Positions 49,150 through 57,855 of a stretch of 64,000 bases of DNA are shown here, in pieces (the first letter of the stretch is position 1; each line of letters begins with the position of its first letter). Origin of the DNA: Ruficoccus amylovorans. GTDB lineage: Bacteria > Verrucomicrobiota > Verrucomicrobiia > Opitutales > Cerasicoccaceae. Both the position numbers and the translations under genes were made by a program. Location: positions 1 to 64,000 of the forward strand of contig NZ_JACHVB010000014.1 of assembly GCF_014230085.1 (NCBI RefSeq), in the 5' to 3' direction. The notes beneath the pieces are model-generated. The model was not told where the DNA came from, made no database searches, and saw only the letters and a list, made by a program, of their open reading frames with translations.

Positions 49150-50187
49150 ATGGCTCAAGCGAAGAAACGACTCGGCCGCGGCCTCGGCAATCTGATTGCC
49201 GGTGGCGTGGCCAAAAAGGAAACGCCCGCGCCCGCCCCGGCCCCAAAGAAGGCCAAGCGCGGCAAGAGCGCCAAAGGCAGCAAAAAGGAGAAGACAAGCG
49301 TCACGCCGATCAAGCGCGCCGCTCCCAAGCCTGCCGCTGCCGCTCCTGCGCCCGCGCCGGTTCCGGCTCCCGCTCCGGCCCCTGCCGCGCCCGAGAGTCC
49401 TTATCGCGAGATCGACGTGTCGTCGATTGACCCCAGCCCTTACCAGCCGCGCCGTCAGATGAACGCCGAGCCGGTCAAGGAACTGGCCGAGAGCATCCGC
49501 TCCGAGGGGCTGCTCCAGCCCATCGTCGTGCGCCAGCGCGGGCAAAAGTACGAGCTTATCGCAGGTGAACGCCGTTGGCGCGCCCACCTGCACCTGGGCC
49601 TGAAAAAAATCGCCGCCCGCATCATGGACGCTTCCGACAGCTCGTCGGCGGTCATTTCCCTGATTGAGAACGTCCAGCGCGAGGGCCTCAACGCCATCGA
49701 AGAGGCTCTGGCCTACGCCAGCCTGATGGGTGATTTTGACCTGACCCAGGAGGCCGTGGCCGAGCGGGTGGGGAAGGGCCGCGCCACCGTCGCCAACGCC
49801 CTGCGCCTGCTCCAGCTCGACCGCGAGATCCAGGGCTATGTGGCCAAGGGCATGCTCTCCGCCGGTCACGCCAAGGTCCTGCTCGGGCTCGAAGACCCGG
49901 CCCAGCGCCTGCTGCTGGCCCGCCGCATTATCGAAACCGGGATGAGCGTGCGCGAAGCCGAGAAGCAGGTCCAGCGCCTCAAGAGCGAGCCGGGGAAAAG
50001 CCCCCTGACGCACCGCAATGCCGCCGGGGCCGAGGACACCATCGTTCGCGACCTGGAGAAGCAGATCGCCACCCGGCTCAACACCAAAGTCCACCTCAAG
50101 CACACGGCGAAGAAGGGGCGCATCATCATCGAGTACTACGGCAACGAGGATCTCCAGCGCATTCTGGAGAAGACCGGCCTCCAGTAA
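49150..50187 (+). CDS. parB: Chromosome-partitioning protein ParB
   Basis: A 345-residue protein. The N-terminal ParA-interaction motif KKRLGRGLGNLIAGG is followed by a basic Ala/Pro-rich linker of about 70 residues. The ParB CTP-binding core has IDPSPYQPRRQMN, GLLQPIVVRQRG, GERRWRAHLHLGL and LIENVQREGLNAIEEALAY. The HTH (LTQEAVAERVGKGRATVANA) and a C-terminal dimer domain follow. No parA lies next to it; the only ParA-like gene in the window (57.1 kb) is paired with a CHAD protein. No parS (TGTTTCACGTGAAACA) was noticed nearby. Confidence 0.93.
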   Translation: MAQAKKRLGRGLGNLIAGGVAKKETPAPAPAPKKAKRGKSAKGSKKEKTSVTPIKRAAPKPAAAAPAPAPVPAPAPAPAAPESPYREIDVSSIDPSPYQPRRQMNAEPVKELAESIRSEGLLQPIVVRQRGQKYELIAGERRWRAHLHLGLKKIAARIMDASDSSSAVISLIENVQREGLNAIEEALAYASLMGDFDLTQEAVAERVGKGRATVANALRLLQLDREIQGYVAKGMLSAGHAKVLLGLEDPAQRLLLARRIIETGMSVREAEKQVQRLKSEPGKSPLTHRNAAGAEDTIVRDLEKQIATRLNTKVHLKHTAKKGRIIIEYYGNEDLQRILEKTGLQ

Positions 50188-52098: not shown

Positions 52099-52719
52099 AT
52101 GACGGCAACGCACAAGCAAAAGACGTTCCCCATCACTTTTGACATAAGTCAGGGACAACACCGCCAGCTTCAGAAACTCAAGCGTGAGTACGGAGTGGCT
52201 TCACTGAGCGAGCTGGTGCGTCTGGCAGTTTCGCGCTTTAACTTTGCCCGAGTCCCGAAGTCGGCTCAGGAGCACCAACAGATTTCGGTGCGTCTGGCCG
52301 AGGCGGATAAGGCTGTTTTAAGTACGACCTCAAAGGCTAGGAATATCAGTGTGGGAGAGCTACTTCGTACCGCTTTGGACGAACTGCTCGCCAACCCGCC
52401 TGGTAAGGATTCTATCCAAACCCAAACTAGAACGAACATGCCTACAAAAAAAACAGCCAAGAAAAAAGCGGCCCCTAAAGCCGTGAAAAAAGCGCCGTCG
52501 AAAAAAGTAGCCCGTAAAGCCGTGGCGAAAAAGGTAGCGGCAAAGAAGGTTGCCAAAAAGGCTCCCGCGAAGAAGGTTGCCAAAAAGGCCGTGAAAAAAG
52601 CTGCGGTCAAGAAAGCACCCGCCAAGAAGGTAGCCGTGAAAAAGGCAGCCAAGAAGGCCGTGAAGAAAGTCGCTGCCAAAAAGGCTCCCGCCAAGAAGGC
52701 CGCCAAGAAAAAGAAGTAA
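52099..52719 (+). CDS. Ribbon-helix-helix-like N-terminus fused to histone-H1-like Lys/Ala tail
   Basis: A 206-residue protein. Two successive ribbon-helix-helix-like segments can be read: KTFPITFDISQGQHRQLQKL with SLSELVRLAVSRF (about 8-50), and QQISVRLAEADKAVLSTTSK with ISVGELLRTALDEL (about 58-100). From about 114 (MPTKKTAKKKAAPKAVKKAP) the rest is an almost pure Lys/Ala/Val/Pro tail like eukaryotic H1 and bacterial AlgP/Hc1-type proteins. It presumably condenses DNA non-specifically, with the N-terminus adding sequence specificity or dimerisation (inference). An internal ATG at 52438 could yield the tail alone. Confidence 0.8.
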   Translation: MTATHKQKTFPITFDISQGQHRQLQKLKREYGVASLSELVRLAVSRFNFARVPKSAQEHQQISVRLAEADKAVLSTTSKARNISVGELLRTALDELLANPPGKDSIQTQTRTNMPTKKTAKKKAAPKAVKKAPSKKVARKAVAKKVAAKKVAKKAPAKKVAKKAVKKAAVKKAPAKKVAVKKAAKKAVKKVAAKKAPAKKAAKKKK

Positions 52720-55552: not shown

Positions 55553-57118
55553 ATGTTGCCCGATTTTTCCCCCATGAAGGCCGATACCTGCATCCTGTTT
55601 GATTCCGAGACAGCCGAAGCCGCCTGCCTAGAGTCGCTGGGGGCGCAATTCGGACTGGAGGCGGCGGGAGCGAGCCAGAGCCGTCATGTTTATTTCGATA
55701 CTTTCGACTGGCGGCTCTTCGCGGAGGGCTACGGGCTGGAGAGTGCTTCCGGCGAACTTCGCCTGTGTTCGCTCGCGGACGACGAGGTGCTCGCCGCGCT
55801 CCCGTGGAAAAACCGGCGGGCTCCGGCCTTCGCGTCAGAGGTGGCAGAGGAAGGGCCGTTGCGCGATGCGCTTGCCAAGGTGTGTGGTATTCGCGCCCTG
55901 CTGCGGCAGGCGGAGCTGACGGCGCATCTGCGGGATTTCCGCGTCCTCGACGCCGAGGGGAAAACTGTCCTGCGCGTGCGTTTTGGCAGCTATGCCTTTC
56001 ACGGCGGGAGCAAGCCTTTCCTGCGCGAATGGCGCGTGCGTCCGCTCAAAGGCTACGAAGCCGAGGCGAGGGAGTTTTGCTTATTGGCCGGACGTTATGG
56101 CAAGCGCCAGAAAGGGCCGGGCGGGCATCCGCTGACGCTCGCGCTACAGGAGCGCGGGGTCGATCCCTTTCGCTACTCGCCCAACCGGGACCTAGGCTTT
56201 TCGCCGGAGTTGCCCGCCTACCTGGCTGCACGGAGCGTGCTGGAGCACGCGCTGGAAGTGGTCGAGGCGAACGAGCCGGGCATCCTTGACGACACGGATA
56301 CGGAGTTCCTGCACCACTACCGGGTGGCGCTGCGGCAGACGAAGTCCGCGCTTGGGCTGTTCGGCGAGGTGCTCCCCAAAAAGGAAACCGACGCGCTCAA
56401 GCAAACCGTCGGGGCGCTCGCCCGCGCCAGCAATACTGTGCGCGACCTGGACGTTTTTCTGCTCAAGCGGGCTTCGATCACGGCGCGTTTACCGGGCGCT
56501 TTCAACCCAGGGGTAGAGACCTTTTTTCGTCGCCTCAAGGCGGAGCGTCGCCGCGAGTTTAAAAAGCTCTGCGCGTTTCTGCGCTCGGAGGAACTGCCCG
56601 CGGGCAAGCTCCAGTGGCGCGAGTTCTCGACCCGGCTGGCGAGCCCGGACTTTTCACCCGCTCCAGGGGTGTCGGTTTACACCGTGGCCTGCGCGAATAT
56701 TTCCCGCCGCTATGCGCGCATCCTCAAGCGCGGGGGCAAGCTTGGTCCCGGTTCGCCCGAGGAGCCGTTCCACGAACTGCGGATCGACTTTAAAAAACTG
56801 CGCTACAACCTGGAGTTCTTCCGCTCGCTCTTTCCGGGGAAGGAGGTGGGCTACTTCATCCGCCACCTGCGCCGGATGCAGGGCCTGCTCGGCGACCTCA
56901 ACGACATCAAGGTGCAACGCGATTTCCTGACCGCGCGGCTGGCGCGGCTCGACCTGAAAACCCGCGACTCGGCCAACATCGCCGCCTCGCTCGGGGCGCT
57001 CATCGCCCGGCTGGAGGAGGGGAGCCTGCGCTTGCGCGAGGGCTTCCCGGCGGCCTTTGCCGAGCTGGCCGACGGTCGCATGAAGTCCATCGCCGGGCGG
57101 CTCTTTCGACCCTCATGA
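55553..57118 (+). CDS. CYTH-like/CHAD-domain protein
   Basis: A 521-residue protein from the ATG at 55553 (55574 also possible). The N-terminal 200 residues resemble CYTH (HVYFDTFDWRLFAEGYGLES), but the ExExK catalytic signature is missing, so it is probably not an active triphosphatase. From about 225 there is a CHAD helical domain with both signature stretches: FLHHYRVALRQTKSALGLF and FHELRIDFKKLRYNLEFF, rich in the His, Arg and Lys that bind polyphosphate. CHAD proteins are known to sit on polyphosphate granules. The stop overlaps the next ATG (ATGA), coupling it to a ParA-like ATPase. Confidence 0.85.
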   Translation: MLPDFSPMKADTCILFDSETAEAACLESLGAQFGLEAAGASQSRHVYFDTFDWRLFAEGYGLESASGELRLCSLADDEVLAALPWKNRRAPAFASEVAEEGPLRDALAKVCGIRALLRQAELTAHLRDFRVLDAEGKTVLRVRFGSYAFHGGSKPFLREWRVRPLKGYEAEAREFCLLAGRYGKRQKGPGGHPLTLALQERGVDPFRYSPNRDLGFSPELPAYLAARSVLEHALEVVEANEPGILDDTDTEFLHHYRVALRQTKSALGLFGEVLPKKETDALKQTVGALARASNTVRDLDVFLLKRASITARLPGAFNPGVETFFRRLKAERRREFKKLCAFLRSEELPAGKLQWREFSTRLASPDFSPAPGVSVYTVACANISRRYARILKRGGKLGPGSPEEPFHELRIDFKKLRYNLEFFRSLFPGKEVGYFIRHLRRMQGLLGDLNDIKVQRDFLTARLARLDLKTRDSANIAASLGALIARLEEGSLRLREGFPAAFAELADGRMKSIAGRLFRPS

Positions 57119-57855
57119 AGATCCTGACGCTTTACCATCTCAAGGGCGGGGTGGGCAAGACCGCCGCCGCCGTCAACCTCAGCTACCTGGCGGCAGCCGA
57201 AGGACGGCGCGTGCTCCTGTGCGACCTCGATCCGCAGGGCTCGGCCTCGTACTACTTTCGCATGCGCCCGGCGCGCAAGGTCAAGGTCGGCAAGCTGCTC
57301 AAGTCGGCCAAGTTCGCCGAAAAGCAGGTGCGCGAGTCCGACTACGAGAACCTCTTTCTCATGCCCTCGGACCTGGTCCTGCGCCAACTCGACGCCAAGC
57401 TTGAAGCCGGGAAAAAGTCCCGTTCACGCCTGAAGCGGCTTTTCGCGGGGATGGAGGACGAGTACGACCTCATTGTGGTCGATGCGCCCCCGGCCATCAC
57501 GCTGCTGGCGGAGAATCTTTTCCGCGCCTCGGACCTGCTCTTGTTGCCGATCATCCCGACCGTGCTCGCGCATCAGGCCATGCTTAAGGTGATGGAGTTC
57601 ATGGAGACCGAAGGGCTGGACACCTCGCGGGTGCGGGCGTTTTTCTCCATGGCCGACCGGCGCAAGAAGCTCCACCGCGAGTTTATGAAGCAGCTTTCGG
57701 CGGATGCCACGCGCTTCCTGCCCGCTGCCATCCCCTATGCCAGCGCGGTGGAAAACATGGGACTCGAACGCCGTCCGCTGCCCGACTACGACCGTCGCAG
57801 CCCTGCCACCAAGGCCTACCGCGAATTGTGGGCGCAGTGCGCCAAGCTGTTGTAG
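57115..57855 (+). CDS. ParA/MinD-type ATPase paired with the CHAD protein
   Basis: A 246-residue Walker ATPase. The deviant Walker A is HLKGGVGKTAAAVNLSYLA (KGGVGKT at 10-16), followed by LLCDLDPQGSASYYF and the Walker B region LIVVDAPPAITLLAENLF. There is no N-terminal HTH, so it belongs with small orphan ParA proteins (McdA/ParC-like) that position cargo on the nucleoid. It lacks a ParB neighbour and is translationally coupled to the CHAD gene, which suggests that polyphosphate granules are its cargo (inference). Confidence 0.88.
   Translation: MKILTLYHLKGGVGKTAAAVNLSYLAAAEGRRVLLCDLDPQGSASYYFRMRPARKVKVGKLLKSAKFAEKQVRESDYENLFLMPSDLVLRQLDAKLEAGKKSRSRLKRLFAGMEDEYDLIVVDAPPAITLLAENLFRASDLLLLPIIPTVLAHQAMLKVMEFMETEGLDTSRVRAFFSMADRRKKLHREFMKQLSADATRFLPAAIPYASAVENMGLERRPLPDYDRRSPATKAYRELWAQCAKLL

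Follow-up and report, generated by a model that had tools for sequence, protein, structure and literature searches.

The window, a stretch of 64,000 nucleotides from Ruficoccus amylovorans, carries on its forward strand two genes that share four bases. The upstream gene (55553..57118, +) encodes a CHAD protein of 521 aa with a degenerate N-terminal CYTH/TTM half, which we propose as an adaptor to polyphosphate (polyP) granules. The Pfam model PF05235 matched residues 229-459 of this open reading frame with an E value of 4.9e-55, and candidate in-frame starts occur at GTG 55349, ATG 55553, and ATG 55574. The downstream gene (57115..57855, +) encodes a small ParA ATPase of 246 aa with an intact KGGVGKT motif, the proposed positioning ATPase. 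As a preliminary description of this DNA had noted, the TGA stop codon of the CHAD gene and the ATG start codon of the ParA gene overlap as ATGA (57115..57118, +), and, judging from this arrangement, the two genes are likely translationally coupled. A four-base overlap is common to 28 of the 70 relatives with a ParA match at E ≤ 1e-40, and the intergenic distance falls between -10 and +60 in 58 of these 70 CHAD-ParA loci; the exact four-base overlap is not retained in the nearest relative (G002). In the genome of the window, CHAD and PPK1 each gave a single match, and three matches were ParA-like. No NCBIfam family scored above its cut-off for either the CHAD protein or ParA.

AlphaFold, given a 20-row alignment, modelled the CHAD protein with a mean pLDDT of 90.4 and a pTM of 0.83. 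Its C-terminal part is a long-type CHAD domain (approximately residues 209-521; 56177..57115, +). Residues 208-521 of the model aligned with the CHAD domain of Chlorobium tepidum (6qv7) at Z 35.4 over 312 residues, with an rmsd of 1.8 and 31% identity, and the complex of CtCHAD with polyP (6qva) matched at Z 34.4. CtCHAD has been solved with a polyP 9-mer by Lorenzo-Orts et al. 2019 (PMC6537752), and changing H253, R256, R260, R296, R418, and Y419 lowered its polyP binding (PMC6537752). In our alignment these positions correspond to H254, R257, R261, R297, R417, and Y418 of the window protein, its predicted polyP-contact residues, and all six were identical in the window and in all 80 of the best CHAD relatives (of 547 candidates). 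The binding of polyP by the CHAD domain, with which the preliminary description had started, is therefore backed in the window protein by a complete set of contact residues, the actual binding being known only for the homologue CtCHAD.

The N-terminal half (approximately residues 11-208; 55583..56176, +) was predicted to adopt a different fold. Residues 6-201 match triphosphate tunnel enzymes in fold (TTM structures overall aligned within residues 2-207 at Z 9-14), among them HpAC1 (6yp4, Z 13.8) and AtTTM3 (5a68, Z 13.6, 176 residues, rmsd 3.3). Active CYTH enzymes carry an ExExK motif at the first strand. A motif scan of the window CHAD protein found no ExExK. A loose version of the pattern occurred within the first 90 residues in 6 of the 80 relatives, none of them at the canonical place as judged by eye, and within the first 120 residues in 6 of 11 further long CHADs sampled from the phylum; in the six CHADs near the paired-CHAD subfamily the pattern was absent. 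By model and motif, this half adopts a TTM/CYTH fold and lacks the catalytic signature, as the preliminary description had noted.

The best Pfam match of the window ParA was AAA_31 (E 4.8e-34). The BcsQ model PF06564 scored 38.1 against a cut-off of 21.3, and the MipZ and ArsA models also exceeded theirs; FleN scored 47 bits, compared to 124 for the ParA 8ray. The deviant Walker A motif (KGGxxGKT), in the form KGGVGKT, was present in all 59 clade ParAs examined, two of which are unlinked to CHAD, and was invariant in the 23-row ParA alignment. The ParA model (pLDDT 86.4) was closest to ParA 8ray (Z 31.5, 243 residues, rmsd 2.1) and to Soj (9a6n, Z 31.3; 6iub, Z 31.0), followed by a Borrelia plasmid ParA (Z 28.5), McdA (6non, Z 27.5, 240 residues, rmsd 2.4), MinD/FleN (Z ~24-26.5), and BcsQ structures (Z 25). 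Motif and predicted fold thus identify the protein as an intact ParA.

Phylogenetic analysis separated the paired ParAs from chromosomal-type ones. In a careful tree of 60 rows, a 100/100 branch divided them from 11 Soj-like ParAs, including the Soj-like ParA of the window genome itself; many forks within the ParA clade were weakly supported. The label Soj-like denotes placement in the tree with PDB 8ray and 6iub, and in the 1.5-kb flanks of 20 Soj-like ParA loci checked no ParB was found. A quick tree of 88 rows included E. coli MinD; both trees left out FlhG/FleN and McdA sequences, and E. coli bcsQ was left out as a reference because it is a pseudogene in that record. An identity of the paired ParA with chromosomal Soj was rejected on the 100/100 branch. 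The question raised by the preliminary description, whether this ParA groups with chromosome or flagellar ParAs, is hence answered in favour of its reading as regards the Soj-like proteins, the tree rows covering these and no flagellar ParAs. Six CHAD-less ParAs, namely two linked to SNF2 genes, that of G420, and three from plasmids, fell on the paired-ParA side of the 100/100 branch.

A ParB gene is present in the window (49150-50187) with no ParA adjoining it, and the Soj-like ParA of this genome sits on another contig (C20), away from this ParB. Among 13 stretches compared, the window and G002 were the only two with a ParB of this kind (cluster 6) close to the pair. Its counterpart is present in G001, which lacks the pair; in the stretch fetched from G003, also without the pair, no ParB match was obtained. 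In the neighbourhoods examined, no ParB travels with the CHAD-ParA pair.

We surveyed the conservation of the pair at several levels. In the order (54 genomes, the window's own included; clade ParA defined as at least 41% identical), CHAD was found in 11 genomes, clade ParA in 12, and both in 10 (Fisher p 3e-8 for co-presence, ignoring kinship). The two genes were adjacent in 9 of the 10; in the tenth (G032) they lie at the ends of two different contigs. The sole match in G026 was a fragment of CHAD where the contig breaks off. In the phylum (387 genomes; clade ParA at E ≤ 1e-30), CHAD occurred in 100 genomes and clade ParA in 16, and the two were adjacent in 13 of these 16. The other three (G030, G048, and G420) had a clade ParA and no CHAD match. 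None of the 12 low-scoring CHAD loci fetched from the phylum (87-192 bits to the profile) had an adjoining ParA, nor had the six CHADs near the paired subfamily (383-575 bits).

In G048 (L055:4473-7790) and G030 (L052:8198-11588), the clade ParA gene lies directly behind a gene for an SNF2-family helicase, identified by Pfam in the former locus and by similarity in the latter. The SNF2-ParA arrangement possibly represents a change of partner.

For a wider view, 547 confirmed candidates were ranked on CHAD, and the best 80 in named genomes were inspected. ParA lay downstream of CHAD in 71 of these 80, which by their record titles span more than 10 phyla and are mostly MAGs; 68 were assigned by a strict rule and three by eye (L095, L102 with a gap of 503, and L148). 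At four loci (L100, L106, L162, and L172) the contig ends within 400 bases, and five (L119, L121, L142, L157, and L169) have no adjacent ParA. Since the search profile was built from 20 CHADs of which 19 were paired, and the best 80 of 547 were taken, the figure describes the subfamily rather than CHADs in general. Five of the 80 (L094, L095, L097, L099, and L125) derive from genomes also in the order survey. All four Methylococcales genomes examined with an unlinked CHAD encode a clade ParA at another site (E 8e-104 to 4e-102). In the Ardenticatenaceae genome (L119), which has no ParA beside CHAD, a clade ParA is missing altogether, the match there being at Soj level only. In the Methylococcales loci L121, L142, L157, L162, and L169, a divergent SixA-like gene and a PstS-like gene lie upstream of CHAD; the CHAD of L162 has no adjacent ParA before the contig edge is reached.

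In the Chlorobi family of Pelodictyon luteolum (61 genomes), both genes were present in 59 genomes and neither in 2; a comparison of coordinates placed the pair adjacent in 53 of the 59 and on different contigs in 6. The family profile found CtCHAD (Q8KE09) at E 1.6e-108 and 3.7e-109, compared to 4.9e-31 for a plant CHAD. In G445, whose CHAD sequence is 100% identical to CtCHAD, the 522-aa CHAD protein is followed 2 nt downstream by a clade ParA gene. By this sequence identity, the crystallised polyP-binding CtCHAD is itself one half of a CHAD-ParA pair. Pairwise distances among CHADs and among ParAs were correlated (r 0.785 for 69 pairs, compared to a maximum of 0.133 in 2000 shuffles), and nearest neighbours agreed in 36 of the 69 pairs; the correlation can also be explained by shared descent. 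The conservation across Verrucomicrobiota on which the earlier interpretation depended was thus observed, with adjacent pairs in 13 of the 16 clade-ParA genomes of the phylum, and it extends to many further phyla with the 71 of the best 80 relatives.

Within the genus of the window, the two genes come and go together while the flanks stay the same. G001 and G003 lack the pair and keep the flanking genes, with the window order secG, 50875, lysine-rich gene, aspC, icd, PerM-like gene, grx, and uvrA retained in both. Between icd and the PerM-like gene, G003 has approximately 250 bases and G001 one small ORF. A third family member without the pair (G006) showed aspC as the sole match in that region. 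The lysine-rich gene (52099-52719) encodes a protein with an H1/AlgP-like tail and a ribbon-helix-helix domain match, and the preliminary description had pointed it out 3 kb upstream of the pair as AlgP-like. As it stays in place in both genomes of the genus without the pair, a link of AlgP to the pair is unsupported, and we rejected the gene as a component.

Genes of polyP metabolism frequently lie near the pair, which bears out the connection to polyP suggested at the outset. A gene for PPK1, PPK2, Ppx, SixA, CYTH or NUDIX occurred within 300 bases of CHAD or ParA at 44 of the 80 loci (PPK1 at 8, PPK2 at 1, Ppx at 3, SixA at 22, CYTH at 19, and NUDIX at 4); the first seed of each neighbour family was checked by Pfam. 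PPK1, PPK2 or Ppx was found within 6 kb at 30 of the 80, and PPK1 within 6 kb at 19, where we estimate that one gene per genome would give well under one by chance. Of the 10 genomes of the order with both genes, 6 have a separate CYTH gene, with an EIERKF motif, ahead of CHAD; the window has none in this position. In Paracoccus marcusii, the order is pstA, pstB, phoU, phoB, three small genes, CHAD, ParA, CYTH, NUDIX, CYTH, and in P. aestuarii CHAD, ParA, CYTH, NUDIX. Co-occurrence with PPK1 was mild and confounded by kinship, both in the order (10/10 versus 27/44, p 0.015) and in the phylum (15/16 versus 270/371, p 0.047), the one clade-ParA genome without a PPK1 match being G214. Taken together, there is a strong case that CHAD and ParA form a genuine unit of two genes that is widely conserved and connected to polyphosphate.

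Several further arrangements were observed. An ArgJ-like gene lies directly upstream of CHAD in L112, L122, L134, L143, L145, L147, L153, L167, L168, and L172, mostly Desulfobulbales (Pfam-checked in L167), and a repeat-rich protein with TSLEG/CPE repeats is encoded just upstream of CHAD in several Chlorobiaceae (L187:3078-3899). A Methanophagales (archaeal) bin (L109) has the order ppk1-CHAD-ParA, by transfer or contamination. A search of 1517 plasmid records for ParA was followed by examination of five neighbourhoods among the matches listed. On the Marinobacter plasmid pMAQU02 (L205:1-4747), a clade-type ParA lies near the polyhydroxybutyrate gene phbB with no CHAD nearby; another granule is perhaps the cargo of this ParA.

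The adjacency of a polyP binder and a ParA in distant bacteria suggests that granules are spaced and handed down in the manner of plasmids or carboxysomes, and we consider it rather probable that a ParA-type system positions polyP granules through the pseudo-TTM-CHAD adaptor. What is observed is the pair, its conservation, the tree, the predicted folds, the residues, and the genomic context; from these we infer the contact between ParA and CHAD, the stimulation of the ATPase, and the movement of granules. The CHAD domain would bind polyP chains at the granule surface, as the complex of the homologue CtCHAD with polyP suggests. The TTM half would no longer cut triphosphates and likely offers a docking face for ParA instead. 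The ParA dimer, as expected from its family, would bind ATP and the nucleoid without sequence preference, and the granule-bound adaptor would trigger ATP hydrolysis and release. With hydrolysis and release triggered in this way, granules would move with the gradient of ParA, become spaced over the length of the nucleoid, and be shared at division. ParA partners are known to use a basic disordered tail, and for McdB the contact with ParA has been placed in the N-terminal 20 residues. A conserved tail for ParA docking was sought in the CHAD proteins and not found. A net-basic C-terminal tail occurred in 5 of 82 and a net-basic N-terminal extension in 14 of 82, and the window protein has neither. 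The rarity of basic tails speaks against the positioning reading, which would need ParA to make contact with a folded surface. Further points against it are the three clade-ParA genomes of the phylum in which no CHAD matched, the three plasmid ParAs on the clade side, the six CHADs near the subfamily and L119 with no such ParA, and the missing PPK1 match in G214.

A rival reading predicts the same genes and residues: CHAD would report the polyP level to a ParA that acts on the chromosome or cell cycle and slows segregation when cells starve, the granule being signal and not cargo. The PhoB/Pst neighbours in P. marcusii fit phosphate sensing, and P. aeruginosa has been described as requiring polyP granule synthesis to exit the cell cycle (Racki et al., via PMC9312465). 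However, the window genome has a separate Soj-like ParA, another ParA match (at background level and outside the tree) was obtained in each of ten genomes searched, and no ParB travels with the pair in the neighbourhoods examined; such a sensing switch appears unlikely. Alternatively, the ATPase may resemble BcsQ or MinD-like helpers and load or control a polyP enzyme complex (PPK1, CYTH, SixA, NUDIX), with no role in placement. The BcsQ, MipZ, and ArsA models above cut-off, the Z of 25 with BcsQ structures, and the polyP enzymes nearby speak for an assembly function, whereas ParA and Soj are nearest in fold (Z 30-31.5), the best Pfam model is AAA_31, and the constant partner is a binder without a catalytic motif, not an enzyme. 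We regard this function as distinctly doubtful.

A chance association, in which a plasmid or chromosome ParA has come to lie beside CHAD as a partition relic or hitchhiker, would account for the three plasmid ParAs on the clade side of the tree for which no CHAD was found nearby, and for ParA and Soj being the nearest solved sequences. It is very improbable in view of the adjacency in 71 of the best 80 relatives, the joint absence of both genes, and the retention of the ParA when unlinked. Returning to granule positioning, we lean slightly towards the broader formulation that a dedicated partition system for polyP granules exists in more than 10 phyla, that granules are a standard ParA cargo, and that an enzyme-derived pseudo-TTM serves as the ParA-activating face.

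If so, the inactive-looking TTM half of a CHAD subfamily and a class of orphan ParAs would each gain a role, and the system would include the protein of the solved CHAD-polyP structure as well as cable bacteria (Ca. Electrothrix, L128). Knockouts of two genes, a coupled polyP binder and a ParA, could then test how polyP granules are placed and passed on in bacteria, with a pair that spans Verrucomicrobiota, Chlorobi, and Paracoccus. In a 2025 review (PMC13052382), the sections seen name AlgP as the sole factor, the row for the polyP granule reading 'AlgP/?' and 'Unknown'. In the open-licence PMC literature, we found no proposal in the passages retrieved that ParA positions polyP granules; PMC10241942 on multiple ParA/MinD systems mentions neither polyphosphate nor CHAD. 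In PMC6537752, 'para' occurs twice at a word start, the passages retrieved concerning no ParA, and the ParA gene of C. tepidum may already be shown in Figure 1B of that paper. A point in favour of the positioning reading is that overexpression of Ralstonia CHAD proteins is reported to shift granules to the poles; depletion of these proteins or of ygiF reportedly gave no apparent phenotype (PMC6537752). The preliminary description knew of no described ParA-CHAD partition pair. This holds for the idea of positioning, which is absent from the parts seen of the relevant papers, but not for the gene neighbourhood, which is in print for Acidithiobacillus (PMC6416229, PMC10892726).

In Acidithiobacillus, parA and ppk are part of a CYTH-CHAD operon (PMC6416229), and the folD-ppk-parA-CHAD cluster resembles the pair in that parA, PPK1, and a CYTH-CHAD gene form one conserved group (PMC6416229, PMC10892726). 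In contrast to the window protein, the active site of the CYTH part is described there as well conserved in its residues, and the passages seen discuss roles related to cAMP or metals. The likeness established here for the Acidithiobacillus ParA is one of gene neighbourhood. AlgP of Pseudomonas aeruginosa helps to space polyP granules (PMC9239181); it is, however, a histone-H1-like protein and neither a ParA nor a CHAD protein. The CHAD phosins (CtCHAD, ygiF, and the Ralstonia CHAD proteins) share the CHAD fold and polyP-contact residues with the window protein, but in ygiF the TTM half has tripolyphosphatase activity (PMC6537752), whereas here the ExExK motif is gone and ParA follows. ParABS and Soj-Spo0J systems have in common with the window ParA the ParA fold and the deviant Walker A motif, 8ray and 6iub being the best solved matches, and differ from it by the 100/100 branch from Soj-like ParAs and by their ParB, none of which is tied to the pair in the neighbourhoods examined. 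The closest parallel in organisation is the positioning of carboxysomes by McdA/McdB, in which a small ParA ATPase likewise works with an adaptor bound to the cargo (McdA 6non, Z 27.5); as in McdAB-like systems, the ParA gene is linked to a candidate cargo-binding partner, here in 71 of the best 80 relatives. In contrast to McdB, the adaptor is a folded pseudo-TTM-CHAD protein in which basic tails are rare, and its proposed cargo is the polyP granule.
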